From Tubulanus polymorphus (taxonomy: Eukaryota; Nemertea; Palaeonemertea; Tubulaniformes; Tubulanidae), in contig NC_134029.1 of NCBI RefSeq assembly GCF_964204645.1, forward strand, positions 22,462,450 through 22,526,449: a stretch of 64,000 bases of DNA, in the 5' to 3' direction. Below, piece after piece: positions 11,901 through 59,239 of the stretch; the first letter of the stretch is position 1, and each line of letters begins with the position of its first letter. The notes under the pieces were generated by a model, which had not been told where the DNA came from, searched no databases, and worked only from the letters and a program-made list of their open reading frames with translations. Position numbers and translations under genes: made by a program.

Positions 11901-14900
11901 CATACGAATAAAGATATCTCTTTCTCCAGATCATAAAAACTCAATCTTTTTTCGTGCATATAACATTTGTATTTCGGAAAGATGTGGTTGCGTATCTTTG
12001 TTTTTATCATGGGATTATGAAATCATTACGAAAGTCAAAAATTAGGATGGGATTTCCAAAATATACTTACAAGGTATATAACATGTACACTATCGAATGC
12101 AGCTTATGTAGGCATTATAACCTACAGTTGTGTGTTTTTTATATTTTCAGCCTGAAGCAAAAGAAGAACTGCCCCCTGGATGGCAGAAACATGAAGGTAA
12201 GATTGTTCTACCAGGTTTTTATTTCTGTAAGGAAGATTTACCAATGATATTGCCTTCTCAACATGCTCATTAGAAATACCTTGCTTAATACTTATAAGAT
12301 TGTGGCCGTATTGCATTTATCAGTGAATAAGTTTCGTAACTTATTCAGAGATCAGTAATCTGTACCGTAACTTGAGTGTTTTAGTAGCGGTTTGTGGTTC
12401 ATATCCTCCCAGGAATGTATAAACAAAAGGGGAAGGCGAAGTAATTGCGGAATACCTAAGTACCCTGACAACTGACTTCGCAAATGTTCATGAAACTCTT
12501 CTGACGTAACAAACGTCTGCATTTCTTCTCACGTCGACTTAAAAATTTGTCGATGATGAGTGTTTCAGTATTTAGAAGATGGTACTGTTGTAGCTATTGC
12601 TGCGATACATAAACAGCTGGTTAATTTATGAAACTTGTCCAAACAGTAAGAAGTCTCTCTGCTTCTAAATTGATCTCACGGGTAGCAACAATGTAAATTC
12701 ACCTGTTGCTTGCTGTAAATCATGTATGAGGATTTACGGACAGTAGATTCAGGTAATTCATAAATGCGCTCGTGTGAGTCATAACTTTACTCGGATAGAA
12801 GTCAGAAATTGTGACGTTTTGAGGATTTTTGAAGTAAAGATCCATAGACGTCTCAGCTTCAGAGATGACTGAGGACCTGTTAGAAGTGGTGATGTCTTTG
12901 ATTATTTACCTATGTGTTCAATGCGTATATATTTTCAGATGAGAATGGTCCTTACTACTGGCATATCAAAAGCGGTACTATACAGAGGGATCCACCATCA
13001 AAACACCAGCGACCACTTTCCATAGCTAGTGATATTTCTATCGTAAGCATTTCTTTATCAATTCACTCGAAAAACACGTCTGCAGTTCATCAAAAAGTGG
13101 TAATCATCGATTCGTTTCTTTTTACAGAGTTCAACATTCAGTTCTTTGACATCTCCGACATTCCCCGAAACTCCAGGCAGTTGTACGTCTGGTCTTTCTG
13201 AAGATGAATCCGATCATCTCAATGCTTTAAAAGAACACGCTTTCAACTATATGTACGCGTCGGAATCATTGAGAAATCTGTAAGTATCTTCTCTTCATTC
13301 GCTGCCATCTTACGACGACTTCGTGAACCAATAACCATTACACCTCGGATATTATCTCTAGGTATACCCCATCAGATGATTCCGATGCAAGTTGCGGTTC
13401 GGACAAAAGCGAGAAGAACAAGTTTAAGATCAGATTCGCCGTACGTTCGCTCGGCTGGGTGAAGATTGCCGAAGAAGATTTAACTTCCGAACGTAGCAGT
13501 AAAGCAGTGAATAAATGTATCGTCGATCTGTCATTAGGACGTAATGACATCAATGATGTGGTCGGCAGATGGGGAGATGTAAGTCTTTGAAAACATTTTA
13601 GATTTAGACTACGTTCTCGATCTTGAAAAAAAACCCACCACAACTGCCAGAAACCGGAAATTGAAGCATAAAGTCGGATGAACAGACGAACTTACAGAAT
13701 GTTTTGCTTTAAATCGAAGAAGTAGATCATAGGAAATTTCAGTAGAATACTCTCTTAACTATTGATTAGACGAACTCGATTTGAATTCTCATTGTTTCAG
13801 GGTAAAGATCTCTACATGGATTTGGACAACTCATGTCTGACGTTGATTGATCCGCAAGACGAAACAGTTCTCAACAAACAAGTCATACAATCTATCAGAG
13901 TTTGGGGAGTTGGTCGAGACAATGGCAGGTCAGTTGAATTTATCAGATCACTCGCTTTCTGTGATTTGGGTTTTGTCTGCTATATGAAAACTTTGAGAAC
14001 TTCCGAGCGCGTGTGCGCAACTTCTCAATATTTTCATAGGCAGATGGGAAGTATTTGTGAGTGAAAAGTAGATACCTCGTGTTAGAACCATTGATAACTT
14101 TCTCGCTTCGGGAATCTGTGTGGATCATGCTCTTTGAATCATTCTGTTTCTTCTCTTCATGCTTTCATCTTAATAGAGAAAGGTAACGATTAAATACTAA
14201 TCATTTTTCATCGCTTTTTGTAGAACTTTTTCTATTCTTGTTGTCGTTATCGTTGTGTTGTTTATTCGTTAAGTCAAGATTTTCCTATCTATTCAAGTTT
14301 TTGTTGTTTATTGTCGTAAAATGGCGATCATCTCACTGAAAAACTACTTAACACATTTTACATTCTAGACAGCAGTTTTCTACGATGAATTACCGAATGA
14401 TTTTGTGTCCCGTGCAGTCGGGCGGTTTATTATTACGTAGCTGATGACCATTTCCTATGTAGATTCGCGAGATGTCTCGTTTGTATCGGCGCGAAACTGG
14501 ATAAAAGCACCAATTACCGTCTCGGGACAAATGGATACAAATAACCGCCCATTGTCCAGTTGATTGGGTATTGTTGTAATTGGTAAAGCTACGTCTAGAA
14601 TCAGCAATACTATTTCGCGACTAAGTTCGCTGATGGCCGTGCCCTAAATGGTGAAAGTTTTATAGACTTGCTCGCTAAATGAAGATTGATGATGTCTGGC
14701 TTTGCTCAGCATGTTGTTCCTGCTAGCATCGAGAATCGGCCAGACAGTGTTTCTTGACACTGAATCTATCAGCAATCTTCATTAACTACAAAAAGATATT
14801 TCAGCATCTACACAGTTGATACTGCATATTGTACAGTTGACATGATGTCGTATTTACCAATGATACGTTAAATTCATGCGCGTTATGATTACTGGATCAC

Positions 14901-17900
14901 TACCGCCATCTATCAGAATTACTGAAAAGTTATCGCTGCAGCTTTGAGTATCTGTAATGCGATATAACCGTTTCTACAAGAGCGTAAAGTGATCTTTACT
15001 TTTTCCCCATGTCATGAAAACGAAACTAATGCATTTTTGAATGAATAGCTTGTCTCGCGTTAATTCTTATCAGCTTACAGAATACGGGCTTTAAGCTTCC
15101 ATTTCGGAAACATATAGATTTCATGAAATGTCATCAAACGCGTGCAGCTAAATCACTATTTAATACACCGTATGTTTATCAATGTTTATTATCCTCTTAC
15201 CTGGTGTCGTGTGAGTGTGGGGGTAGATACTGCTGTCTGTTGTGGCTGCTCAGCAACATGCTCGTATAGACATATACATTTAGATGAATTTTGTCAGTTG
15301 CGGTAGCAGGAAACGCAAGCATTCTCTTCAGTTTACGGGTCGCTTCGTATCGACAGATTGTTCGATCATTAATCTATTTATTATTCACGGAACGATTGAT
15401 CCCGTGCCAATATTGATCGATCAAAAAGAGCGAACGTTTCATAAGAGACCTGATACGCGCTGAAATAAAGCGGATAATTAGAACAAAGAAAATATTAGAC
15501 ATCGTCTAGATTCGAAAGCACGATCGCCTTTGGTTAACGGTATAAAGACCTGTTTGAAAATCGACTGTTTTGAAATATTTGTAGGGATTTCGCGTACGTC
15601 GCTCGTGATAAGGTATCGAGGAAGCATATGTGTCACGTATTCCGATGCGACACGCCTGCCAGAGAAATCGCCAACACTCTACGAGATATCTGTAAGAAAC
15701 TGATGTACGAACGAAGTATGAGACACGGCGACCCGTTCGCGTCTGCTCAGCGCTCGTCAACGATACGTCCGAATAATCTACCGAATCTAGAGAAGAACAA
15801 CGAACCAAACGGACAGAGTTATACTTTCCAGAGTTTATACAAAAGTAAGTAGAATCTTTTCAATTCGCGATCGGTTCTAATTAAATGGTTTCATTCCAAT
15901 TACATGTTAGATTTAGATGTTGTGCATTTTGTTGAAACTTCCGTATCATGAGTATACGATGTTTGCTTGTGGTTCTCCTGTCAACCTGATCAAGTTATGC
16001 ATTATAATCTATAATTTGATATCGAAATATTCATAATGCTCTATATATTTTACTACATGAAATACATAATGATACTGGCAATCATGATAATAATCATAAT
16101 AATAATAATATGACATCGTTATTATTATTGATATTAGTATCGTAAAGTATTTCATCTATTAAGATTTATAAAGTGTTATGAATATTTCGACATTGAATTA
16201 TAGATTCATTCCATTATAATTCGTGCGACTCGATCAGGGTGACAGTTCTCTTGACGGATCGGTGAAAGTTTTCGAAACATGTCTGAGAACTGTTCTGCAA
16301 TTTCAATTCTCTTATCGTTCATGTTCACTGTTGCCGACACTGAACTAATTTAACGGATACGTTGATCTGTAATTAAGATTCAGACGAGTACGTCGCGCTC
16401 CGTCGCGATGTAAATCCCGTCATGCCGTCTGAGAGATCGTCATCAGTAATTATTCCGAGTCAAAGTCAAATGATTGCTCGGAATCAATTAGACTTGCATA
16501 TCTCGATATAGCCTTAAGTCGCGGCATTCTATCAGTAGAAATATCTTAATATTCTCATGAGTAAAGGCAGATTTGTGCATCCAAGGATAAGGTGCATACA
16601 GTACTTTGAATATCCTCAAGGTTGATTGTCTAAAACCTGTAAGATACGTATGATGTACAATCGATCATCAATGTGAGGTTTGACTTGTTCTCAGTCCCTA
16701 GGTATCGGTGAGATATTTCAAACTTTTTTCCAGAAACTGAATTATTCATGAATCTGCGTTGTTAGTGCTCTTATGAGGATGATTTTGTCGTCGGTCGTTT
16801 TGATCAATTCGGTGATTAGCTCCCTATGAGCTTTCTGGATCGTTTGAAACTACCTGAGCGTTTCGCATCTGGCTAAGATTGCGGCTCCGGTTCTGTCTGC
16901 ATAATTCATCATCGGAGTTGCCTCCTCCTCCGCCGCCGCCAAGCTGTCGTCTCAATCCCGCGTCCCTGAGTATAATGAGTCATCGCTATTTCAGGTGGTG
17001 ACTCCTCATTAACCGAAGCAATGAGTCACGAATCGCTGCAACAAGTGTCCCCTCCCCCCTGATAGACGGTCACATCGTTTATTTGACTGCACAAAAATCA
17101 CACTCGTGGATAGACTCATCGCGTTCTCTCTAAGTCAATATGTCAATGTCGATTGAATGAAGGAATAAAGACATGTACTGAATTGAATGATTACCGATTG
17201 AAAATGGATGCGAATTCTTTTTCGAGGAGACAAAAACAATCTATCCAACTCGATTCGGCGCGAGGCTCGGTCGCGAGAAGATAAAGCGCGAAGATTTCAC
17301 CGTCATTTATAACACGAAGTTAACGATGCTTTATGAATTTGAGAGAGAGCGAGAGAGAGGGCTGTAGATGATGTTCCGCGAAAAACAATGATGCGTGGAA
17401 AGTTAAAACAGATAGATCGCTTTTGAATGGGAACGATTTATGCGTGATCGGTCGATTTTCATAATAAAAGTGCAGAAAACTCATGAAACGACGTGACATT
17501 TTTTCGCTAACAGGAACATGCGAGTGGGCGTTTGTGTAGGTAATATCGTAGAAGTCATATGTCACAACTGAGTCGCAACTGATCGCATTAGAATCGGATT
17601 TCGTTGATTAATGTCAGAGACATCTCAAAAACGCCTGCGTGCGCGTATATACCGTCGCATGAGAAATCTCACAATAATTCAGCCAAAGATGTAGAAATTT
17701 CTAGAGTAATAGTTTTATATATTTGAGCAACATTTCAGCTAGAGATTATTAGTGGTGTGTCTGGCAAATATTGTTCAGTTGAAATGTTGCTCAAATATAT
17801 TAACCTTTTACTCAAGAACTTGATACATCATTGGCTGAATTATTGCGGCAATTTCTCTCGTATTCTTCGCCGATTTTGTGCGTCTTGTCGACTTATACCA

Positions 17901-20900: not shown

Positions 20901-23900
20901 TTTTTTCCGGAAAGAATGTAAATCGTTCTCCGCGTTGGTAACGATTAAATGATTTCGGTTGTCACCGATCCAGACGGCTGTAACAAATTATGCATTAGCC
21001 GATGAAGCCGAGCCAGACTGGCGCTTTTCTGATTGATAATGATGTCAAATCATTTATATACCAAAGAAAACTTGGATAACTTATTCCACAGGCAGCGTTG
21101 GGCATATGTCTATATGTATTTTGTCGTTTTTCAGTTCAACTGATCGGAACTATGTCAATTTGATTGTCATATTTAATGTTTAACCAGTTTTTGTACTTCG
21201 ATAGTAGTCAAATAAATCAAATCAAATCAATCAAAGGCTTAATTGTGGTTGGCGTACCGATCATCGATATCGTACTAAAAACCTTCGATTTCATTCTCAT
21301 TTCAGAAACTTCATTCCCGACTCCGATGGAAGAACCGAAGAAAGTCATCCGTGCGCATTACGTCGGACAGATGCAGGTGTCCAAACCGACTGGAGTCGAT
21401 ATACTCAACGACGCGATGCAGTCACTTTACAACACAGTTCCACCCGAGGAGTGGGTCTTCGTTAACGTGGGAGTGGCACCTTCCACTTTGACCGTTACCG
21501 AAAATGCGGTAAGACCACTTCTAACTGATCCATACGATAAAATCCGGCAATATGGAAGAAAGACATATCAGAAAGGTTTCCTTGCTGTAGTTTAATTTTG
21601 ACGTTTCGACTATATCCTAAAAGACATCATCTTCATGAATACTAAGGTTACAACAAAACTACGAAATATACAATCCTAAACAACTTTGAGGCAACAAGTG
21701 AACTGTATACTATGATTATGTGTATATATTTCATAATCTTGTTGTAACCCTAGTATTCCTGAAGATGACTATCAGGATGTAACGGTAGAAAGATGGAATT
21801 AGTTGAACTGCAGCTCGAGGAAACATTTCAGACCGGTGAAAGTGGGATAAAACGAGACAAGAGACGGTTACCAGACAGAGTGTTTCATCAAGATTACTCG
21901 TAACCGAATTAGGACGAAGATGAATTTTTAATTCGTGCTACCATCGAGTTAATCATTTCTTTAATAATAAATACATCTCCGCCGGCGCTGTATAACATCC
22001 CGCCCGCGTTTTACAACCAACAAAGTTACCATCACCATGACAACCAGTTGAGTATGAAGCTACGGGGATCGATATCATCGCCGACTGCTAACGCAGATGA
22101 AGTCGCGTTGAATTCCCCTCCGCTTTAACCGCGGTCTGTTTTTAAGCGGGTCGTAAATTTTTTCTCCCCGCGCGAGTTCTATAAATCTGATAAACCTCTG
22201 CGAGCACCGATACATTAACCCTTTCACTGTGAAACGCGTCGTGAATGTATGATATATTACGCGGTTATTGATTCGAAAGATGTTGTATATTTTGTAGAAT
22301 CCTGATAACCAGATTTGCGAATGTCGTGTGCGATTCCTATCGTTCATGGGTATAGCCATGCAAAATGTGAAGTGCGTATCAATTTTTCGAATCTTCAAAT
22401 CTATCAAATTTTCGTGTTGGTTTCAAGTTTTCATTTGAGTCTAAAAAACACGACTTTTCAATTTCAGATTGTGTGCTTTCATCATGCACAGCGCTCAAGG
22501 ATCGTTTGTTGCTCATGTTTTCCATTGTGAGCCTTCAGCAGGTGCTTTATGCAAAACCATTGAAGCTGCTTGTAAGGTAAAGACCATTTGAAAAAAAATA
22601 CAGTCCACCCATCCTCACAGTTGTCTAGAAATTGAAATGCTCTTGGAAATGCATCACTACATTTCCCTCTATCCACCCCTGTCTTATCGTAGTAAGTTTA
22701 GCAACTTTAACCCTTTCAGTGCATCTACACTGCAGTGCGGTGTATAGATTGGTGATCGAATTTGCTTGTACACCGCATCGCAATGCATTTATGTTATCAG
22801 TAATTAGTTTTTATCTCTGTTGAAAGATGGCAGCACCTGTCAAACATAGTTAAATCGGTAACTAACGATACACCACACCATGGTGTAGCACACTGTCTTA
22901 AGCAGTATGCCCATTATTCCACAGCCTAGGGTGTTTTAGGGAATTTTTTTAAATCTTTGAATTATCCAGCACTTTTGGGTATTTATTAGTCGGTACTGGA
23001 AAAGGGTTGAGAATTTTAGTCCTCAGCCAGTTGTTCATGTCATTTCTAGAAGCTCTTCGCAACTAGACTCGAGAATTATTTCTTTATTTGCAGTTACGTT
23101 ATCAGAAATGTTTGGACTCGCATCCGACTACACCCGATATCAAACGACAACAAATGATGCAAAGCAAGGTAAAATCGAAATCATGTATTTTTCTAGATAT
23201 TGTGTTAGCATATCCCACAGTGGCTCATCTGTTATAAATAACAAAATGCCCGATTTTAGCTTCGATGTTGATTTAAATCCGTTCATTCAGAAATTCCTCT
23301 TTATTCAATTGAATAGCTTTAGTTCGTTAGTATATAGATGTTGTTCACGACAAATCATTTTTTCGAAATTTTGCAGCAACATTTTTTATTTTGAGATATT
23401 GTCACCGGTGTGAAATTTGTTTCGATAGCCACTGTTTTTGTGTAACCTTTTATTTGATTGCGTGGTTTTATTAACAATCGCAAATTGATTCATTTATTTC
23501 GAAGCATATTTCACGAGCAGATACCGAGAATTTGATTTAATCGATATAACATCTGCAACTTATATGTTTATCAGGAAATTTTAGACCAATATAAGTAAGA
23601 AAGATATTTCTATTTTTTTGCTATAAGCTGAAGGCAGCATTCGGCATGTTTCTATCATCCTAGATATACAGTATGTTCTCGAGTACAGAGCCTGAGTGGA
23701 TTGCTACTAATCCATCTGAATCTATTTCTGCTTCAAAAAGAAAGTTTGCCTAGAGCATCGGGCGACTAAATTCTTTGATTAAAATTGAAGAAACCTTACT
23801 ATCACCTTCACCAACACACCGCTGATAGCAGAAACTTTAGCATGGGAGCAATGTATTCAGTTTCTTCTAATGAAATCTGTCAATGGATACTGATTTTGAA

Positions 23901-24379
23901 ACTTACTTTCTATAATACGCCAGATTAAACTATTTTCACTGAGACTTGCTTGAATTCATTACTAGGCTGTATAAGTTCGATTCTCCGACTAAGCATTTAT
24001 ACGAAATTTGTTTCAATCTCAGAATCGACTGAAACGATGGAGAGAATTGTTGACGAAAGTTCCCGCATGTCGATGTCTTATTGTGCATATTTCTGTCCAC
24101 TACTTTTTCAGGCCGGTCTAAGGGCTAGTTTAAAAGCCGGCGTGCAGAACGTGTTCGGCATGTTCAAATCCCGAAAGACGGAAACATAACTGATCTGTGT
24201 ATAATAAACCTGACCAGGTAACAGCCATCGATGCGAAAACAAACTTCCGAATATGCATCATTGTTTTATAGATAAACTACTTTATTCATTCATTCATGTC
24301 TTAATTTCTTATCCCGTCATTAATTTTTATATAAGATTTTGTTCTCATCCGTAAAAAGAAAACTTACTCATTTTCTATT

Positions 24380-24458
<79 letters not shown>

Positions 24459-24940
24459 TTGTACCTTTTCGGTTATCGAAAAAAAAATCATAATCAAAAT
24501 GTCACATATTCTCCGAAGGGCTAAATTTAGTATCTAACCTTTAATGAACGTATATAGGGCGTCGTCATTGTAGCTGAACATACCTATCGGTACATGCATT
24601 GCATGTTAGCTTCCTTTGCGTTCATAAGAATATGCTTTACATAAGGAATGCGATATTGAGTTCTATCGAATTTGCTTATGATTTTCTATCAATGCTAGTT
24701 AAAACACTATCTATTTAGAAATGCCATCCATTCTGTTAAAAATCATATTTGCATGAATGGTGACAAGAGCTTTCGAAATAATCTGACCAAATTCTCATAA
24801 TTCTATGGCTCATTCACTGAATGTTCGGATGACACCTTTTTTTCGTATGGTTTTTTCAGGGTTTACGTAACAGCTTGAAGAAAAGTATGGCGACCGTTCT
24901 CGGACTGCGAACTCAACGCAACGGCGGTAAACAAAGTTAG
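8176..24940 (+). CDS. APBB: APBB (Fe65) family adaptor protein gene
   Basis: This is a spliced gene for an APBB/Fe65 adaptor, a family that binds the APP cytoplasmic tail through PTB2 and nuclear partners such as Tip60/KAT5 through PTB1. Exons: 8176-8920, 9873-10092, 12151-12196, 12939-13042, 13128-13279, 13362-13578, 13801-13928, optional 14177-14182, 15585-15844, 21306-21508, 22298-22371, 22468-22576, 23094-23168, then 24112-24189 or 24860-24940. Every junction is GT..AG and in phase, giving about 803 residues from 8176. Order: a Ser/Thr-rich N-terminus with an FLGYYASLEKS motif that also occurs in vertebrate APBB2, an acidic run (about residues 193-220), WW (about 327-360), PTB1 (about 440-570) and PTB2 (about 636-775). 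Family assignment is very secure. Whether to call it APBB1 or APBB2 is not meaningful for a probable single invertebrate copy. The true start codon is unresolved. Confidence 0.95.
9104..9129. repeat. Short (TAATGA)n microsatellite
   Basis: Four to five tandem aatgat units lie in the intron after the acidic exon. Confidence 0.8.
9553..9668 (-). mobile_element. Truncated TTAA-type MITE (copy 1)
   Basis: Read on the - strand, this matches the left half of the elements at 22707 and 37699. It begins with TTAA then CCCTTTCAGTGCTGTG (TTAA at 9665-9668), carries the paired tacaccgc-like motifs, and ends near gaaagatgccagcacctgtc. The other half is missing. Confidence 0.75.
9873..10092 (+). CDS. APBB: APBB exon: linker with CINSPDSNDSGIQ motif
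   Basis: Acceptor gttacag, donor GAG|GTAAGA. The first T completes Ser with AG from the previous exon. The sequence reads SFSDKTKCINSPDSNDSGIQ and then an Asn/Thr/Lys-rich linker, and ends in phase 0 just before the WW-encoding exons. Confidence 0.9.
10093..12150 (+). other. APBB intron, no further exon seen
   Basis: About 2.06 kb. Several short open frames are present but none has splice-flanked conserved coding sequence. No repeat is recognised. Confidence 0.6.
12151..12196 (+). CDS. APBB: APBB exon: start of WW domain
   Basis: A 46-nt exon between atattttcag and GAAG|GTAAGA. It encodes PEAKEELPPGWQKHE and supplies the first signature Trp of the WW domain. It ends with one base, which joins AT of the next exon to give Asp. 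Confidence 0.92.
12939..13042 (+). CDS. APBB: APBB exon: WW domain core
   Basis: Encodes DENGPYYWHIKSGTIQ then RDPP. The YYW core strand and the final Pro pair are present. The position of the second signature Trp (TQWEPP in vertebrate APBB1) is Arg (IQRDPP). The exon is bounded by attttcag and ATC|GTAAGC and ends in phase 0. Confidence 0.93.
13128..13279 (+). CDS. APBB: APBB exon: WW-PTB1 linker
   Basis: Bounded by tttacag and CT|GTAAGT. It encodes a Ser/Thr/Pro-rich stretch, then EDESDHLNALKEHAFNYMYA. The preceding intron is only 85 bp. Confidence 0.88.
13362..13578 (+). CDS. APBB: APBB exon: PTB1 first half
   Basis: Bounded by ctctag and GAT|GTAAGT. It encodes the opening strand FAVRSLGWVKI, then the SSKAVNKCI helix and GRWGD. 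These match the start of PTB1 in vertebrate APBB1 (FAVRSLGWVEM, AVNNCI, GGWGEG). Confidence 0.95.
13801..13928 (+). CDS. APBB: APBB exon: PTB1 middle
   Basis: Encodes GKDLYMDLDNSCLTLIDP then QSIRVWGVGRDNGR. It ends GGC AG|GTCAGT, leaving two bases that are completed either by G at 15585 (Arg) or by the microexon at 14177. IRVWGVGRD is a strong family signature. Confidence 0.95.
14177..14182 (+). CDS. APBB: Candidate 6-nt microexon (Arg-Glu) in PTB1
   Basis: AGAAAG lies between acceptor catcttaatag and donor GTAACG. Between the flanking exons it gives GGC AGA GAA AGG GAT, changing GRDF to GRERDF without shifting frame. Vertebrate APBB1 carries a neuron-enriched 6-nt microexon adding Arg-Glu at this same point (GRERDFAYVARD). 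The upstream intron ends in a long pyrimidine tract (14142-14175) with a TGC at 14160-14162, the motif expected for SRRM3/4-dependent microexons. Site, length, phase and residues all agree. Splicing itself is inferred. Confidence 0.8.
14183..15584 (+). other. APBB intron downstream of microexon
   Basis: About 1.4 kb with no recognised exon or repeat. It ends at tgaaatatttgtag. Confidence 0.6.
15585..15844 (+). CDS. APBB: APBB exon: PTB1 second half and inter-PTB linker
   Basis: The acceptor is atttgtag and the first G completes Arg. It encodes DFAYVARDK, then MCHVFRCDTPAREIANTLRD and ICKKLMYERS, the last strand and C-terminal helix of PTB1. A polar linker follows, ending SYTFQSLYK. The donor is AAAA|GTAAGT, leaving one base. 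Confidence 0.95.
15965..16255. mobile_element. Foldback/MITE-like element in APBB intron
   Basis: The left arm, about 15965-16071, is mirrored by the right arm, about 16147-16255. Shared segments include gaaatattcataatgc, ttatagatt and ctgatc/gatcag. The arms are imperfect and the centre contains ATA/ATT trinucleotide runs. No coding capacity. Boundaries are approximate. Confidence 0.7.
17661..17858. mobile_element. Foldback element with 21-bp perfect inner stem
   Basis: The arms run 17661-17737 and about 17778-17858. The inner pairing atatatttgagcaacatttc / gaaatgttgctcaaatatat is perfect, and the outer aataattcagcca / tggctgaattatt also pairs. No ORF; consistent with a non-autonomous transposon relic. 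Confidence 0.75.
21306..21508 (+). CDS. APBB: APBB exon: PTB2 start
   Basis: The acceptor is ctcatttcag. AA joined to the preceding A gives Lys. It encodes TSFPTPMEEPKKVIRAHYVG, then the pattern QMxVxKPTGVDILNDAM and VNVGVAPSTLTVTENA, the opening strand and first helix of PTB2. The donor is GCG|GTAAGA, phase 0. Confidence 0.95.
21614..21778. mobile_element. Foldback element with 43-bp arms
   Basis: The left arm is 21614-21656 (includes cttcatgaatactaaggtta) and the right arm 21739-21778 (includes taaccctagtattcctgaag), mirroring each other with few mismatches. A related single arm (attcctgaagatgaatac) occurs at about 46743-46766. It lies in the intron between the first two PTB2 exons. Confidence 0.7.
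22298..22371 (+). CDS. APBB: APBB exon: PTB2 ECRVRFLSFMG strand
   Basis: A 74-nt exon between ttttgtag and GAA|GTGCGT. It encodes NPDNQICECRVRFLSFMGIA then MQNV, matching vertebrate GECRVRFLSFLAVG. It is too short to appear as a long open frame and was found by phase and homology. It leaves two bases, completed by A at 22468 to give Lys. Confidence 0.92.
22468..22576 (+). CDS. APBB: APBB exon: PTB2 final strand and helix
   Basis: Bounded by atttcag and AAG|GTAAAG. It encodes LCAFIMHSAQGSFVAHVFHC then EPSAGALCKTIEAACK, matching vertebrate TFAFIM...FWCEPNA...AVQAAC. Ends in phase 0. Confidence 0.94.
22707..23010 (+). mobile_element. TTAA-type piggyBac-like MITE (copy 2)
   Basis: It starts TTAA then CCCTTTCAGTGCATCTACAC and ends aaagggTTGA, the right target copy being degenerate. 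It shares the block gaaagatggcagcacctgtc with the 37699 copy. Together with flanking sequence it fills most of the 517-bp intron between two PTB2 exons. Confidence 0.85.
23094..23168 (+). CDS. APBB: APBB exon: C-terminal helix of PTB2
   Basis: A 75-nt phase 0-0 exon between atttgcag and AAG|GTAAAA. It encodes LRYQKCLDSHP (vertebrate APBB1 has LRYQKCLDAR) and then PDIKRQQMMQSK. It is the common donor for both terminal exons. Confidence 0.95.
24112..24189 (+). CDS. APBB: APBB terminal exon, version A
   Basis: After acceptor ctttttcag it encodes 25 residues, AGLRASLKAGVQNVFGMFKS then RKTET and TAA. The GVQNVFGMFKSRK part resembles the vertebrate APBB1 tail (GVQSLWGSLKPKR). A poly(A) signal AATAAA lies 14 nt after the stop, supporting a genuine short last exon. 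Confidence 0.85.
   Translation, partial: AGLRASLKAGVQNVFGMFKSRKTET
24203..24208 (+). terminator. Poly(A) signal after terminal exon A
   Basis: Canonical AATAAA (in gtgtataataaacctg), 14 nt downstream of the TAA at 24187-24189. Confidence 0.7.
24385..24455. repeat. (TA)n microsatellite, about 71 bp
   Basis: An uninterrupted TA run in the 0.67-kb interval between the two alternative last exons. Array length may be compressed by assembly. Confidence 0.97.
24860..24940 (+). CDS. APBB: APBB terminal exon, version B
   Basis: After acceptor gttttttcag it encodes 26 residues, GLRNSLKKSMATVLGLRTQR then NGGKQS and TAG, in the same phase 0 as version A. GLRNSLK aligns with GLRASLK of version A, indicating tandem exon duplication followed by divergence. 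No AATAAA follows closely; the first obvious one is at 26674, so this isoform would have a longer 3' UTR. Confidence 0.82.
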   Translation, partial: GLRNSLKKSMATVLGLRTQRNGGKQS

Positions 24941-25783
24941 CAGACTCAACGCTCGGAGATCGCAATCTCTCCCTCTGTCTATATATCGACTCTTTCGTTC
25001 TGATGGTGCCATACTCAATTATTATTGTGAAGAAAAGACTATATCGCGGATGTTCATAAACCGAAAATCAGCCCCTGGAACTTTTGTTTACATTATACGA
25101 TTTATATGATATGTATATGTATGTATATGGGCAGATTATGTGAAGCTTTATGTCAATGAGATACTTTTGTCGAGAACGAGTGTGAATACGTACTTGTATT
25201 TATCGAGAATACACGAACGTGTATTCAAAAAAAACTTGAATGTAGTTTACTATCGAAAACTCCTAAACTGTGGGCAGTTTGTCGTATTATTTGGTGTATA
25301 TTTCCGATCGATGATGATGTGTCGGCGTCTTTACAAAAAAAAAAACCATACGTGTGGTAAACGAACTCCTGTATATAAGCCATTGATGTAAACGATGTTG
25401 TTGTCTCGTGTAAATGGACCGGCAGATATCTTCTTTCATAACGCTTTGAACGCATGAGATCGCTTAATTTCGTGCGCTGTGACTAACGCGGCGAGAAACG
25501 ATGTGCTGATACGATGTTTAATATGTCACTACTCGATGGATGGTTTTGATATTTCCTTCTTCGATAAGTTGATCGAATCGACAGTCTGAACATGAGAGGG
25601 CGTAACTATATATTATATCTACTAGTGTCTATTGTACAGATTGCGAAATATCAGTATTCAAACTTTGAAAGAAAGAAAAAACTAATGAATTTCGTGTGTA
25701 GGTGTATAATGAATTTCCCGGTTTAACTTTTTTCTTGTATACATTTAAAATGGTTGTCATCGTAGTACTGAAAACTGCCTGTA

Positions 25784-25948
<165 letters not shown>

Positions 25949-27341
25949 CGCGACTCTAATACATAGCAATGCATTGGAATTGATACGAATTGATGTAAAT
26001 ATTGGATAAAATATATAATTGTACGTAACATAGATGTTTTAGAAGCGAATCGAATGGACAAAGATTTCTCACGTTTTCAATTTTGCCGTGTCGTCAAATT
26101 TGCAACGCGAACGAGACGTGAATGGAGATATTTCGGACTCGTATCATCTTTGCCCGCGCGATAGTTTCTTCAGTTGCATATCATCGTCACATTTGAAGCA
26201 GTTCGTCGCAGAAGATTCTGAATTCACGCGTTGTATCTCTGAGCACTTCTTCGATTTTCGTCTTTTCCCTTTTTCTGAACGCTTCCACGCACCGGGGACA
26301 TCAGAACCGGGTTTTCTAATGCGTCTATCTCGTAGACGAAGAAGATTCACTTCTTCCTTAGAGATATTATTTCATCCATAGCGTTGTCCCTGACAACATA
26401 TCTGATAGAAATTTGAGAGAACGCCGTGGAAAATAATGGGGTGTGTCAGATTGTATTCAAATGTGAATTTAGTCATGTAACGTGCAATATTTATTGTGGA
26501 TAGTACTTCCAAGATACAACCACTTCTATATACGAAATATGAAGTTCATCAAAATCGATGTATACTGAAGTTAATTGTATGCGGTTTGTACTGGGTACGA
26601 TGTACATTGTTATGCGTGAGCTTTAACGGATTGATATTTGGAGAGACCGCTTTTTTCAAAATTGTGTGCGTGTAATAAAAATTGCGGCAAATTCTGCTGT
26701 AGCATCATCACATAGGCTGCTGAATATTTAAATATTGTGTAGTTTGATGAATAAAAGATTGGTTGCCTTCGTCTAAAACCTTTTAATACATGTCGGCTAC
26801 GATGAAAAGAATTTTAAAATTTTCAAACTCGCGGAACTGTTTACATCTAAAAAAAAAGGCAATCAATCTGAATAACTGATTTCAGAAAGGTGCAATAAAA
26901 CTGAATGCTTACAAATCTATTGATTCATCTTGGGGACATTTTTTCTTCGAAATAAGACTAATCATGGACTATTTTCGAGTCCATCGTCGAATCCATCTCC
27001 TTCCCACTCGGGGAATAACGTTTCAAAAAATCAAATTATAATGGTAAAAAGAGAAAATGTCGCCCGGTGTTTTCTAATGAATTTGTACAGTTTCACCAGC
27101 TCGGTATTGTCTGGGTTATTTTGTGAATGTTGAATTTATGCAATCGTGAATGACATCATCATGCGTGTAAATACCCATCATAACAGTGGCAGTGAAAGAG
27201 GCGTGTTGTCGTTGATGTTGGGAGGGGGTGGTGAAGCTTGCTCAGGTCGTCGTAATTGGGACCGTCGTTCATTATGTTGACTACTTTGTAAATTGAATTG
27301 GAATATAAATTATGACTCAAAAAATAGAGTTTAATGACGTG

Positions 27342-28648: not shown

Positions 28649-30246
28649 AAAAGCCAGAAAACTAGCGATAGAAAATAATAGAAAATAAGAAACTTCGTTG
28701 TACGTGTTTTTCAATTTGTTTTTCAATGAAATTAATGGATTACTCGAACGGCTTCTCAGCTCAAAATGCTTCAAATGAAATAATATATGTAGCCATAATT
28801 TGTATATAGACAGAGACACACACATATATGATTATATTGTAATATAGTTGATGACTTTATTTGCATGTAATGCATCCCGTTACAGACACATTTCTAAATC
28901 AGCACAACATCAGTAGTTTTCTATTTTGAAGGGCACGTATTATTTTCTATGTATTTCAAATTTGTGTTTAGTCGTTTATATAACGGAAAAAAGTACCATG
29001 ATTTCTTTCGTTCGATGACGATGACGTTCTTGATTACAAAATTGAAAATGATTTTTTTTCTGATCGGCATTTATCTAAAGCGAGCACGCTTATTTCGAAT
29101 CCAATCCTGGGTAAGAAGAGCTTTGATACCAATGCAATTTAATACGGCCAATGTTAGAAATAAAAACAAACTTTTTGCTGTTATGCAACTTTAAGGGCAG
29201 GTGACTTTATTCGTTTAAAACTGCAATAGTTTTTTTCTAAGACTCAGTTCTTGAATACATATAAAAATGTACATGTATATCATGATGATTTCTTCAAACA
29301 CTTTACACAGTTGTACTTACAATCTTACATGTGTAATTTACTATTTAGAGCAAACTAAATGAACTATATTAAATATGATTGTTTCAACCACTACTATACT
29401 ACTACCAACAAGAGTTTGCAAGTAGATTTGCTGATAGATCGCCATTTTTGTGGTGAATACTGACCATCGCAGAATATATTATGTTTGTTATTTGCAATAA
29501 ATGAATATGATGTCAAACAGCATTCTGCTCTCATTGTTCATTTGTCTTTTGTCTTCGAGGAATTATTAAGTAATTTGTGACGGTTTTGGAACATGATTTT
29601 AAGAAAATTGACCAAATGTATGGGTCCTTAAAACCCATTCGGTGGGGAATGAAAAAAATAAACTTCTATCGTCCAAAGAATCCCGCCACCTATCAGTGTT
29701 TGGGCATTTCAACGACTGTTAGACAGCCCTACTGCATGCCAGTAGTGCAGTTAGAGCAGCCATCTTCGACTAGTTCGCCATCTAGCGGGCAACTCGGTCA
29801 ATAATGGTCAGTCACGCCTGAGGTGACCACGACCATGCCTAAATATTTTCACCGACACGCCCAACGTGACCACGCCACCGAGTGGTTTTAAGATGGTGGA
29901 TGTGATACCATTACTATAGTTCCCAGCTACTGTGGTATATGTGTACATTAGCTATTTGCACAACTTCGCCATCTATTGGAATTTTTCTGAACTATCAAAT
30001 TCTTTTATCGCCAATAGCAAATAATCTCAATGAACGACATTTCACATACGCCATCTATCGAAGAATATGATTAATGCCTTTCATTTTGAATAAATGGGTA
30101 TGTCCCATGTTCGAATTTGGTCTATTGTTACTGATTCTGTGTAACCTGTATGGTGAATAAGGAATAAATATGGGTGTCCCAGGTACTGGTTCTGCCCTCA
30201 TGCTGAAGAGAGGATGCGTCAGGATCGAACAAATAAACAAAGAGTC

Positions 30247-31057
30247 TTAAGGCTGGCTGATGTCGACAAGCAACGCGACGCCTACCGACTCCTACCGACG
30301 CAACTGAGGGCAACCGCGATCGCAGCCCAGCTTATGTCGACTGCGCTCCGATTCGCAGCAACTGAGGCCGACTATCGGGATACGAGATCCTCCCAGTTGC
30401 TTTCCTGCTTATGTCGGTTACGATTACTGGCAACTGCAACGGCTCAGATGGTCACGTGATAAGCATTTTGAGAATAAATTTGATTTATTTTGAATTATTG
30501 GGAAATATATTTCTGTTAGAAAAGCTATTTCTTTAAGATCTTTATCTTTCTGATTCTGTTTTGAATACAATGTGCTAGCGACATCATATAAAGATGGCCG
30601 CTCACACCATAATTCTACCAATTTCGCTTCTAGATTTTCGGTCCAGTCATCTGCCGTGCTGAAAGTTTCGTTAACGTTTCGAAATACTTTAATTTGAAAA
30701 TTTATGACTAATTACGAATGACGCTAACTAGCGGTCATAATTTGTATTATGTATATGCGGTCTCTTATTGGCTGGAACCCTTGCGCTCAGTTCCGTCGCG
30801 TCGCAGATGAGCTTATGTCGGTTGCGATCGAAAGCAACTGTCCGCTTACCGTAGCCCGGAGTAGAACATGGGCAACTATCCGGATACGGCTTGCGACGAG
30901 TCGGTAGGCGTCGGGTTGCCGTCGCAAGCCGGCTTATGTCGAACCGATAGAGCAGCAACTGGCGGCCTCTCGTAGGCCGCTAGTTGCCGCTAATCGGCGA
31001 TAAACCGAGTTGCATCGGTAGGCATCGCGTTGCTTGTCGACATAAGCCAGCCTTTAA
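30247..31057. mobile_element. 811-bp foldback element B, copy 1
   Basis: It begins TTAA then ggctggctgatgtcgacaag and ends with the complement (cttgtcgacataagccagcc, then TTTAA). TIRs of at least 38 bp include aacgcgacgcctaccgac. Subterminal cttatgtcg and gcaactg motifs recur in both arms around an AT-rich core. No transposase frame; a non-autonomous, foldback-type element at a TTAA-like site. Confidence 0.8.
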
Positions 31058-31278
31058 AGGCGGGCGTAGGTCGGCCTTGCGACGCGACGCGATCGTCGCA
31101 AGTGGGCGCGTAAGTCGGTTGCGACGCGATTGTCAGCGACTGTGTGCGGCTAGTTGCTGGCAGTCGCAAGGTAGCGTAGGTCGGTGAGTCGTTGCGACGC
31201 GATCGTCGCTGGCGGTCGCAGTGAGTCGCGTCGCAGTGAGTCGCAAGCCGTCGCAAGGCCGACCTACGCCCGCCTTAA
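31054..31278. mobile_element. GC-rich TIR module A, copy 1
   Basis: Starts TTAAaggcgggcgtaggtcg and ends cgacctacgcccgccTTAA, inverted copies of each other. The interior is built of short gcgacgcgatcgtcgc and ggcagtcgcaa blocks. It abuts element B and shares its right TTAA. Confidence 0.8.
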
Positions 31279-31660
31279 GTGACCACGCCACCGAGTGGTT
31301 TTAAGATGGTGGATGTGATACCATTACTATACTTCCCAGCTACTGTGGTATATGTGTACATTAGCTATTTGCACAACTTCGCCATCTATTGGAATTTTTC
31401 TGAACTCACAAATTATTTTATCGCCAATAGCAAATAATCTCAATGAACGACATTTCACATACGCCATCTATCGAAGAATATGATTAATGCCTTTCATTTT
31501 GAATAAATGGGTATGTCCCATGTTCGAATTTGGTCTATTGTTACTGATTCTGTGTAACCTGTATGGTGAATAAGGAATAAACATGGGTGTCCCAGGTACT
31601 GGTTCTGACTCATATGCTGAAGAGAGGATGCGTCAGGATCGAACAAATAAACAAAGAGTC

Positions 31661-32471
31661 TTAAGGCTGGCTTATGTCGACAAGCAACGCGACGCCTACC
31701 GACTCCTACCGACGCAACTGAGAGCAACCGCGATCGCAGCCCAGCTTATGTCGACTGCGCTCCGATTTGCAGCAGCTGAGGCCGACTATCGGGAAACGAG
31801 ATCCTCCCAGTTGCTTTCCTGCTTATGTCGGTTACGATTACTGGCAACTGCAACGGCTCAGATGGTCACGTGATAAGCATTTTGAGAATAAATTTGATTT
31901 ATTTTGAATTATTGGGAAATACATTTCTGTTAGAAAAGCTATTTCTTTAAGATCTTTATCTTTCTGATTCTGTTTTGAATACAATGTGCTAGCGACATCA
32001 TATAAAGATGGCCGCTCACACCATAATTCTACTAATTTCGCTTCTAGATCTTCGGTCCAGTCATCTGCCGTGCTGAAAGTTTGGTTAACGTTTCGAAATA
32101 CTTTAATTTGAAAATTTATGACTAATTACGAATGACGCTAACTAGCGGTCATAATTTGTATTATGTATATGCGGTCTCTTATTGGCTGGAACCCTTGCGC
32201 TCAGTTCCGTCGCGTCGCAGATGAGCTTATGTCGGTTGCGATCGAAAGCAACTGTCCGCCTACCGTAGGCCGGAGTAGAACATGGGCAACTATCCGGATA
32301 CGGCTTGCGACGAGTCGGTAGGCGTCGGGTTTCCGTCGCAAGCCGGCTTATGTCGAACCGATAGAGCAGCAACTGGCGGCCTCTCGTAGGCCGCTAGTTG
32401 CCGCTAATCGGCGATAAACCGAGTTGCATCGGTAGGCATCGCGTTGCTTGTCGACATAAGCCAGCCTTTAA
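31661..32471. mobile_element. 811-bp foldback element B, copy 2
   Basis: Same length and ends as copy 1 (TTAA at 31661-31664; right end ccagccTTTAA). It is a product of the 1,413-bp duplication, not an independent insertion. Confidence 0.8.
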
Positions 32472-34613: not shown

Positions 34614-35550
34614 TTATTTTCTACAACAATAGAATCTTGCACAGAAATATCGACGGATTTCCCGTCCTAGTAAAAGATATATGTAAAAGTTGACCACATA
34701 ATTACACAATTGGAACTGAATGAATGCATCGTATAAAAATGCCTTTCGGGCAGGTAGGATTGGTAGGAATACAGTAACAGAGGAAGGTAGGGTGAAAATT
34801 GCAAACGCAAATGAAACTGTTACGAGCATTATTGTTGTACGTTTTGCTTTCGTAGTTGTCACATGGATGAAACCAATTTTGAGCCCCTGAATAACTGAAC
34901 TATTATAACAGAATTCGATATAAAAATCAATGTCAATGGTAGAAGATGAACGTATGAAACGTATATGAAAAAAAGTAAGCACATGTCGGATAACTCGTAG
35001 TAACATCCGTGATCGTTTGAGAATTGCATCATTACTGCCGGGTGAATACCTATCAGCGATGCATTTATTGTGAAAATGATTACAATCGCGCATCGGGCGA
35101 ATCTAGGCGTACATATGAAACGAGATGTGAACGGGTAGAGCACAACTGCCGAACGTTCTAGAGATATCGCTACTATTAACCAGCAACTATTGGCGCCCAA
35201 AGTATTCATCAGAGATTCGTAGATTTGACAACTGATGACGGAATTCATCAAGAATATCGCACCGCCAGTATTAACACGCAAGAACGGGCATCAGCGCAAA
35301 ACTAATACCGAACACAAAATCACATAAGGATAAAACGATCAGATCAGTTAGCGTAAGATAAACTGCGGAATCTGCGACTTATCATTATCAGGAAAGTGGC
35401 CGAATTTCCGAAGGTCCCCATCAAAAACAAAACCAGTAAAATCACGAATGAAATTATACGCTAGCTTCCAGACTTGTTCTCGACAGACATGATAGTGATG
35501 TGACTGGTGTAAGTCTGAGCGATTTGTATCGCAGTGTAATTCTTCATCAT
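34614..35550 (-). pseudogene. Intronless class A GPCR pseudogene
   Basis: Read leftward, ATG at 35550 opens an N-terminus with an NYT sequon. It hits an in-frame TAG (35461-35463) just before TM1 (FVILLVLFLMGTFGNS, with the GN motif). The frame changes near 35347 before TM2 (LIVLSLCDFVFGISF), near 35280 before TM3, and near 34862 in the third intracellular loop. TM3 ends SLERSAVVLYP in place of ERY/DRY. TM4, TM5, TM6 and a TM7 with NFYIYLLLGREIRRYF follow, and the frame ends at TAA (34614). CT.RFAR after TM3 recalls FMRFamide-type receptors, but that assignment is weak. Four lesions and no introns argue for a dead copy rather than an assembly slip. Confidence 0.82.
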
Positions 35551-55457: not shown

Positions 55458-55597
55458 TTCAAATGAAAAGGGGAGCGACGTGAATTGAGGCGATATTGTC
55501 TATTCACGATTTCATCCAAAATTGTTCGGATCTATGATTGTATCATGTTGACGCTTTTGGGAATTTAAACGATTGAAAAATCGTAAAGGAGTTAGAA
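55458..55597 (+). promoter_or_regulatory. 5' UTR of CCK-type receptor exon, with uORF
   Basis: A good 3' splice site (tttacaatttcag) ends at 55457, so the exon may start at 55458 after an upstream non-coding exon. A 7-codon upstream ORF (ATG 55463 to TGA 55483) precedes the main start and could damp translation. Both points are inferences from sequence alone. Confidence 0.4.
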
Positions 55598-55958
55598 ATG
55601 GCTGCGTTGTCTACTTCGAGTACTTTGATGCCTACGCTTTCAGACATAGTCGACGAGAAAGGAAATGTTTCCACTAACTTCACCCGGAAGCGGGTGCCGA
55701 TTTCGAATATCAGCGACGAATTACTGTTAACGTTCTATAGCCTGATATTCGTGTTGGCGGTCGTTGGAAATTCGTTAGTAATCGTGACATTAATACAAAA
55801 CAAAAGAATGCGTACGGTTACGAACGTTTTGCTGTTGAATTTGTCGATCAGCGATCTGTTGCTGGCAGTATTCTGCATGCCGTTCACATTAACCGGATAC
55901 TTACTGAGAAATTTCATCTTCGGTCCCGTCATTTGTCCGATGATTTTCTACTTACAAG
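55598..55958 (+). CDS. CCKR: Cholecystokinin/sulfakinin-type GPCR, first coding exon
   Basis: ATG at 55598 (aaATGg) opens 120 codons plus one base before the donor CAAG|GTAAGA. The N-terminus has sequons NVS, NFT and NIS. TM1 has the GNS motif (about residues 47-69). The first loop, NKRMRTVTNVLLLNL, is almost the CCK receptor sequence. TM2 carries SISDLLLAVFCMPF with the conserved Asp. FIFGPVICPMIFYLQ supplies Cys3.25 at the start of TM3. The family couples peptide ligands to G proteins at the plasma membrane. The remaining exons (ERY motif, TM4-7) are not in the window. CCK/sulfakinin type is strongly favoured; subtype is not determinable. Confidence 0.9.
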
Positions 55959-57228
55959 GTAAGACTTAACCTCTCAACCTGTTTATCTTATAAAGCCCCG
56001 TCTTAGTTCCCTAAGCTCCGTTTATAAGTGGAAAATGTCGATAATTACGACAAGCAACCGAGGCAAATTAGCACTTCGGTGTCTGATGTTTGGCATTGAA
56101 ATTACTTGTTGGTAATAGAAAAAACAATATATCAATCAATATTCGAATTTTTTTCGGGACTACCGTTAAAGCATACTCGGATGAGGAATTTGTAACATTT
56201 TTCCTATTTGGATTGAGGGCTTTTTTCCGTAAAATTGCGATGCTTTGATCGAAGAGTAAAGTAAACAAAATATAGATGAATATACTTTCAATTGGTAGAT
56301 AAAACTGAAAATGTTTGGATGGTTCGGCATCTCGGGGACCATGCGCGATGAAATATGTATGTGAAAATGATACTCTTGCCTGAAGAAAGGATCGATGAGT
56401 TTGTATTTCAAATCCCCCGAAGGATTTTACTTTTACTCAAACTTATAACGAAAAACACGTGAACTGTAAACGTCGGCGATCAGCGAGTCTGCTAGTATTA
56501 CCCCCAGACAGAGATTCAGCGATATCTGAAAATCGAGTTGGATTCGTAATTGTTGACGTACAAATCGTACACATAATCTATGTGTTATCGAGAAGTCTCC
56601 GAGCGATTGATGCGATCATTTTTCTATTCGCAGTTCAAAATTCGAATAAATCCCACTGAATAAAAATATCCTCATAGCCAGAAATTCGAGAATTTAAAGT
56701 TAGATTGTCATCATTTTGCAAGTAGAGAACACGATACATACAATAACGAATTACTTTTAGCGTCTATAGAAACGTTTTCGTACTTTTTATCATGTAGGTG
56801 CCGTATAGGTTTCCCTATGACGACTTATGGAATTGAAATATCTTAGATCTCCGCGCAAACTGAATAGCTCAAAATCGTTATAAATGCACACGTTCATATT
56901 TCACTAATAACGGCAAAGAACTATCGTCGTCTCGTTTCTTTCTCTCGATAAAACCTCTCGAAAACGTAAGAAAAGACTCTTGCCTTTTCAGCGACTGCCT
57001 TTCCGTCCTTGATATTGATTCGAGTAGAATATCATTTCCAATCCGCATTCTATTACACACGGCGCGGTGATCTGTCGTGTTTCTGTCTCGGGCAGGTTCG
57101 TTGCGAGCGCTGGGGGTTTTCTTTATCCCGTAGGCAGTTGTGTATCTGGCATTAATTCAGTGAATCGTTTTCCATACATGATTGTCGAATTATCAGAAGG
57201 TATGATTTTGTAATTTGGCGCGTTATTC

Positions 57229-57320: not shown

Positions 57321-58812
57321 TATGAGTTTGTCGCGACAACGGCTTCCCTGAGACAGGCGAATTGTTATCATTCCCGTTACATTAGATGTGTGAAAAATGT
57401 CCACAATAATTAGGTTAAAGTGCGATATTGCCGTGTCTGAGGACCATGAGACACTTCCTCCGTCGGTTAAGTGCTTACGCTGAATGGATTCTCCATTTTC
57501 TCACGGGAAGTACCTCGTCAATTACTGTCACGGTGAATTGTTTTTATCGATGCTGTAATTACCTGTTCACCTTACGAACAGGTAACCCCTACAAACTGGA
57601 TCCCCGAGGTATTGAGTAATGACGCCCCCGAGGTTCTACAATATTTGTTTATCCGTCAATATCGCTTGAAATCCTTTCTACTCGGTCCGACGTCGTCGAT
57701 CGCCATATTGGACCGTGGAGGAAAAAGATCATTAAGATCTGTCATCATCTTGCGAGATAAAAAGTTGAAGAAAATCCTGTCCAAGCCAAGCCAATATACA
57801 CGCACGTCGAGCAGACGCGATTCTTTATATATGCAATGGATCTAAATCCACCCAATTACGTTTTGCAATCAACTGGTGCGTGATTATGCAATTACTCCGA
57901 TCGATTGAAAGTATGTCTAGTTCCCTGATTTCACCGAGTCCCGCGAGGTTCATCTACATCGAAAACTTATTTCGACGAAACGGCGCGCGGTTTCCGTCGA
58001 TGCAGGTGATATGGACTGAAAAGGTCAATTCTCGCAGTCGATCTCTTTGCGTGCGATCGCGAATAACGCTATCTCGTTTTCGCTGTTCATTTGAGCGTAT
58101 ACACGTGAGACTCAGTAAATTTTTCATTAGCTTTTCCAGAATATTCAAAACCAACTCGTACTAATTGCGATGGTTTTGTAACGACTCTTAAAGAGCGCAA
58201 TGATGCAATACTCGGTGCATGGGAAACGACTGCTCGAGAAATGCACTACTGTAAATTGCCACGCGCGGAGAAAAGAATATTGTTAATGTTTATAACCTCT
58301 AAGAATACCTACTATTCCCGATTAACTGAAACGAACAGGTGGTCAACGAAACTAAAAACTTCTACTGAGATGTATCGGTTCGCTTGTTTTGTATCAATAA
58401 ACGACTGAACTTTCTCTGAGAGTTTCAAAGAATTTTTCTCACCCAACCGATATGCGCGACGACCTACAATTCATCTGAAATTTGTCCAAGGTCATAGATT
58501 CGAATTTGGTATCGTCTACTCAAATTATTCCCAGAATCTTTGTAATAGTCACGATAATCTAGAGCGATCCTTCGTATTCATGTAAATTAGCGCTAATGCG
58601 TGAAAATTAAGTTAACAGTTGTCGACTCGTTTGACCATCCTCCGGTATGTGTACTTTAACCAATCGCCTACATCGCGGGTTTTAAAAATCAACATGTTTT
58701 TCTTTTTCTAAATCTTTAGTATTCATCATTTCATCATTTCGTTTATTGTAACTTTGTACAAAGTACAGTATACAAATATCGTTCATGTAATACATAATAT
58801 AATATAGTGGCA

Positions 58813-59239
<427 letters not shown>

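Follow-up and report, generated by a model that had tools for sequence, protein, structure and literature searches.

The 64,000-nucleotide (nt) stretch of Tubulanus polymorphus DNA analysed here, hereafter the window (contig NC_134029.1, positions 22,462,450 to 22,526,449, RefSeq assembly GCF_964204645.1), contains an APBB/Fe65 gene whose first PTB domain (PTB1) is interrupted by a 1,656 nt intron harbouring a candidate 6-nt microexon, AGAAAG. Coordinates of the microexon and of the APBB gene are positions in the window, plus strand. On its best reading the element descends from a microexon of the ancestral APBB gene and is probably under neuronal control: with a probability of roughly 0.83, positions 14177-14182 are a real cassette exon that is alternatively used, is the orthologue of the microexons in PTB1 of vertebrate APBB1, APBB2 and APBB3 and is included in neurons via the eMIC domain. 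The window sequence, chance estimates, two open isoforms and the alignment to APBB1 PTB1 all point to this exon.

The microexon candidate and its vertebrate counterparts

The host intron, as removed when the microexon is skipped, spans 13929-15584 and has normal outer sites (donor CAG/GTCAGT after 13928, acceptor TTTGTAG/G before 15585). It interrupts the PTB1 coding region, the upstream exon ending in ...AATGGCAG at 13928 and the downstream exon starting with GGATTTCGCG at 15585. AGAAAG is flanked by TAATAG, which includes the acceptor AG (14175-14176), and by GTAACG, the donor (14183-14188), which fits GTRA and lacks a G at +5. The upstream exon gives AG and the downstream exon G: skipping results in AGG (R), inclusion in AG-AGAAAG-G, i.e. 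AGA GAA AGG (R-E-R). The frame is kept upon inclusion, the peptide changes from GRDF to GRERDF, and both isoforms are open across the three PTB1 exons, with 203 amino acids (aa) in the included and 201 aa in the skipped form. Altogether six AG-N6-GT candidates occur in the host intron, only one of them being an in-phase R-E-R; the five others encode SEK, RQQ, SML, SFE and SVK and were rejected.

The identity of the gene is supported by its domains, which are arranged in the order WW, PTB1 and PTB2. With exons joined by hand before scoring, PTB1 reaches 82.2 bits (included) and 79.9 bits (skipped) against the Pfam PID model, and the joined PTB2 27.2 bits, all above the cut-off of 20.9. For the WW domain, joining the two half-exons yields 26.1 bits (E 8.8e-6), slightly below the Pfam cut-off of 26.9, and the exon with the second WW half gives no domain match when searched alone. 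Among PDB entries, PTB1 is closest to APBB1 entry 3d8d (E 2.6e-39), which we take to be PTB1 of human APBB1. The included peptide aligns with 3d8d at 137.1 bits without a gap at the microexon site (VGRDNGRERDFAYVARDK against VGRDSGRERDFAYVARDK), whereas the skipped peptide aligns at 126.4 bits and leaves a gap of two residues precisely at E-R, although the program is blind to the microexon. The Arg-Glu insert appears to sit between VWGVG and DFAYVARD, taken as neighbouring PTB1 strands. A first-pass annotation of the window had named the gene APBB and had described AGAAAG with the same flanks, frame and peptide change; the window sequence confirms the latter, and the domain order and the PDB match bear out the former.

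In human Fe65 the site of R-E-R is occupied by E462 and R463, the residues of the mini-exon (PMC8304848). The vertebrate genes APBB1, APBB2 and APBB3 each have a 6-nt microexon at the paralogous site, and isoforms with and without it are reported for every one of them in mammals, chicken and fish (PMC4317164); the section on APBB microexons in that paper names no invertebrate. Presence in all three vertebrate paralogues fits an origin before their duplication and makes the ancestral APBB gene the proper comparison. The first-pass annotation had pointed to vertebrate APBB1 as the counterpart: position and residues are indeed common according to the 3d8d alignment, but APBB1 is not the only gene concerned, as APBB2 and APBB3 carry the microexon as well (PMC4317164). 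The microexon looks like the same exon as in vertebrate neurons.

Acceptor features and the eMIC domain

Exons as short as 6 nt are poorly recognised without help. Typical of exons dependent on the eMIC domain are a long AG exclusion zone, a UGC close to the acceptor, a strong branch point and a longer, UCUC-enriched pyrimidine tract (PMC8797185). The candidate acceptor is preceded by an AG-free zone of 89 nt (next AG at 14084-14085), by a pyrimidine-rich tract (14145-14174) with 24 C/T in 30 positions (80%) and a TCTC at 14152-14155, and by a TGC element at 14160-14162, from which 14 nt separate the microexon. AG gaps of at least 89 nt account for 39 of 3192 gaps on the plus strand of the window, and for 240 of 20361 in a natural background of 400 kb (20 stretches, each 10 kb long, taken irrespective of introns from ten contigs of the same genome and read on both strands). 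At seven other acceptors of the APBB gene (the tentative acceptor at 22313 being left out of the comparison), the AG-free zone measures 18-75 nt and pyrimidines make up 16-20 of 30 positions. Both the pyrimidine tract with a TGC about 15 nt upstream and the assignment of the acceptor to the SRRM3/4 (eMIC) type, suggested beforehand from the letters, hold up against the published code in AG-free zone, TGC and TCTC.

The genome (267.8 Mb, 77 contigs) is found to encode an eMIC domain, as judged from its translated sequence. Two PF15230 matches on contig C2, 27844603-27844731 (23.2 bits) and 27842320-27842358 (20.4 bits), lie under the 27-bit cut-off; these neighbouring exons cover profile positions 9-55 and 55-67. 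Joined via donor ACCAG/GTAAGA and acceptor TTTCTAG/T, they give ...SPSHLDKRRITSARKRPIPYYRPSPP... and reach 54.3 bits. An intron splits the core of the domain (RRIT/SARKRPIPYY, C2:27842320-27844731). Since each half stays under the Pfam cut-off, a plain genome domain search at that cut-off would miss the domain. MYST acetyltransferases, the family of KAT5, are represented by 14 matches at four loci, at family level and with KAT5 not singled out.

In non-vertebrate bilaterians the eMIC isoform of Srrm234 is restricted to neurons (PMC8797185), and eMIC-driven neural inclusion is the most likely mode of regulation here. In neurons, the acceptor with its UCUC, UGC and long AG-free zone would be the target of the eMIC form of Srrm234; with U2AF and SF1 working alongside, early recognition factors would be recruited and the microexon brought in, while non-neural cells would join the outer splice sites directly. 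Inclusion would put Arg-Glu into a PTB1 loop flanked by two strands (VWGVGRD-NGRER-DFAYVARD); the added charged residues may tune PTB1 binding. By analogy with mammals, where inclusion strengthens binding to KAT5/Tip60 and, to a lesser degree, to APP (PMC8911335), a stronger KAT5/Tip60 interaction would be expected.

Alternative readings and evolutionary origin

AGAAAG might be placed between AG and GT by chance and never be spliced in. The hexamer alone is common, with 47 copies in the window versus 38.3 expected (both strands), and the six AG-N6-GT candidates of the host intron compare with 5.1 expected from 20,000 dinucleotide-preserving shuffles of the 1,656 nt; the bare hexamer not being rare, the weight of the case rests on its context. 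Any in-phase R-E-R candidate arises in just 0.36% of the shuffled introns, and one with a GTRA donor in 0.05%. With the TGC and TCTC criteria, picked post hoc when the site was already known, the figure is 0.035% for R-E-R preceded by a TGC at a distance of 10-25 nt without an intervening AG, and 0.005% (a single shuffle) if TCTC is demanded in addition. The 400-kb background contains one R-E-R candidate, corresponding to 0.004 per 1,656 nt; it lacks a GTRA donor, a TGC in range and an AG-free zone of at least 89 nt, and has fewer than 24 pyrimidines in 30. Few hidden trials are involved, because the published vertebrate exon set position and residues in advance. Shuffles and genomic background alike speak against chance as an explanation of the site, and we regard an unspliced coincidence as very improbable.

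A real exon of the same origin could also be included in most tissues instead of being neuron-regulated. A working acceptor and donor would suffice for this; however, the acceptor is of the eMIC type, the genome encodes an eMIC domain and tiny exons are poorly recognised unaided, so that broad inclusion appears unlikely, if less so than coincidence. Parallel gain, in which the same PTB1 loop acquired a microexon once in vertebrates and once in the nemertean lineage, finds precedents in tensin microexons, which map to the same PTB beta-turn (PMC4317164), and in orthologous genes with recurrent exons at different positions (PMC8797185). An independent origin would nevertheless have to match length, junction and residues, which are all identical, and ranks with coincidence among the slightest possibilities.

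Several observations weigh against a neuronal microexon of shared descent. The donor GTAACG is not strong, and the Pfam PID model favours the included form by 2.3 bits only. A TGC at -10 to -25 is also present at one of the seven other APBB acceptors (12939), i.e. TGC alone is not specific, and the PF15230 search gave a sub-cut-off match in one of 14 control genomes as well, a bacterium. The basis is the DNA of one protostome genome. Furthermore, the fly and mouse programmes have only four exons in positional correspondence, and microexon conservation drops rapidly outside vertebrates (PMC8797185), which gives deep conservation a low prior probability; the main text of the same paper does not name APBB. 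A review infers the loss of Fe65 in arthropods (PMC8304848), in which case the fly programme could not reveal an APBB microexon.

The host is a lophotrochozoan, hence a protostome, as its translated Hox cluster indicates. Ten of 38 homeodomain matches are Hox-type and lie in a single stretch on one strand (C6:5318228-5634747, about 316 kb). Their order, from the translations, is Post2, Lox2, Lox4, Antp, Lox5, Scr, Dfd, Hox3, pb, lab; Lox2 and Lox4 carry IKELN UbdA-type peptides and Lox5 carries LAKLNGPN. Hox and ParaHox names are our assumption from sequence signatures, not from a tree. This gene order is the one expected of a lophotrochozoan cluster. On contig C5, a ParaHox-like pair (Cdx and Xlox by our reading) is spaced by about 20 kb (C5:5588359-5608793). 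With Lox5, Lox4, Lox2 and Post2 present, the protostome host assumed by the first-pass annotation stands, and the protostome-deuterostome comparison is valid.

Sequence, frame, position and residues of the exon, its acceptor features, the eMIC domain of the genome and the host lineage are direct findings. That the exon is spliced in the living animal, that inclusion is confined to neurons, that it alters binding and that it goes back to one bilaterian exon rather than to parallel gain are inferences. A broader proposition, somewhat less secure than the exon itself and still favoured, is that the protostome-deuterostome ancestor already possessed an eMIC-controlled APBB PTB1 microexon, whose length, frame and residues were kept in the lophotrochozoan and in vertebrates, and which the fly programme lacks by the presumed loss of the gene in arthropods.

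Gene map, further window features and known systems

Besides the microexon, nine exons of the APBB gene are placed on the window sequence. The first WW half (LPPGWQKHE) ends the exon at 12156-12196, of which only the 3' end is placed, and the second WW half (DENGPYYWHIKSGTIQRDPP) occupies 12939-13042. PTB1 starts in 13362-13578 (RFAVRSLGWVKIAEEDL...AVNKCIVDLS...RWGD), continues in 13801-13928, 5' of the microexon and ending ...VWGVGRDNG(R), and in 15585-15844, 3' of it (DFAYVARDKVSRKHMCHVFRC...). PTB2 exons were located by tblastn with a human sequence: the first half at 21306-21508, CAFIMHSAQGSFVAHVFHCEPSAG... at 22468-22576 and the PTB2 end, LRYQKCLDS..., at 23094-23168 with a tentative exon end. 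The exon CECRVRFLSFMG... (22313-22371) has both ends placed by eye and a tentative donor. Within 22313-22576, IAMQNVKLC faces VGRDVHTF of the human sequence, so that the loop at this exon junction is divergent; the tentative donor placed there (GTGCGT) is non-consensus. The PID matches listed number nine, one of them being this APBB gene.

Elsewhere in the window, open frames resembling exons of rhodopsin-type G protein-coupled receptors, judged by eye, are found at 55577-55969 (+) and 34614-35290 (-), e.g. GNSLVIVTLIQNKRMRTVTNVLLLNLSISDLLLAVFCMPFT. Long I-Y repeats in several frames (24355-24537, 25629-26076 and 58682-59325) are probably (AT)n microsatellites. Near-identical open frames about 1.4 kb apart within 30157-32125 (30157-30459/31574-31873 and 30424-30711/31838-32125) suggest a tandem duplication or a repeat. 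A search of the window against Rfam at gathering scores is negative, and among viral contigs five stretches fit a pattern, none of which encodes a relative.

Microexons, their control by eMIC and the APBB microexon itself are already known in vertebrates; the novelty suggested here is a very old member in a lophotrochozoan. Among the matches listed, titles and abstract starts in the literature contain no invertebrate APBB microexon (one listed paper, on Aplysia, mentions APBB once; PMC8840921), although it may have been reported earlier and public gene sets of other invertebrates may hold its residues. Should the broader proposition on the protostome-deuterostome ancestor be true, the exon would rank among the oldest regulated neuronal microexons known. 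The same residues encoded by a 6-nt exon in a lophotrochozoan would point to very long constraint on some microexon switches, and APBB would become a model for asking why a change of just two residues in a PTB loop persists; most single microexon deletions in zebrafish cause no strong phenotypes according to their authors (PMC12626424). The case also illustrates how the scan of a single genome recovers an exon whose shortness defeats ordinary alignment.

The closest known systems are mini-exon 9 of vertebrate APBB1 (Fe65) and its equivalents in APBB2 and APBB3, likewise 6 nt long, in frame, at the same PTB1 junction and with E-R/R-E, a likeness based on length, junction and residues and not on nucleotide comparison. 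The candidate differs from them by its lophotrochozoan host and is known from DNA, while reports on the vertebrate exons cover inclusion, skipping and tissue bias. With the eMIC-dependent microexons of Drosophila and mammals (Srrm234, SRRM3, SRRM4) it shares a long AG-free zone, UGC, UCUC and an eMIC domain in the genome; unlike in those, its eMIC dependence is a prediction from these features. A neuronal microexon at one position across phyla is also known from unc-13, with 9 nt in nematodes and flies and a similar one of 6 nt in mammalian Unc13c (PMC12287369). The APBB microexon, presumably neuronal too, belongs to a different gene, and in contrast to unc-13, where length varies between phyla, it keeps both its length and its residues.

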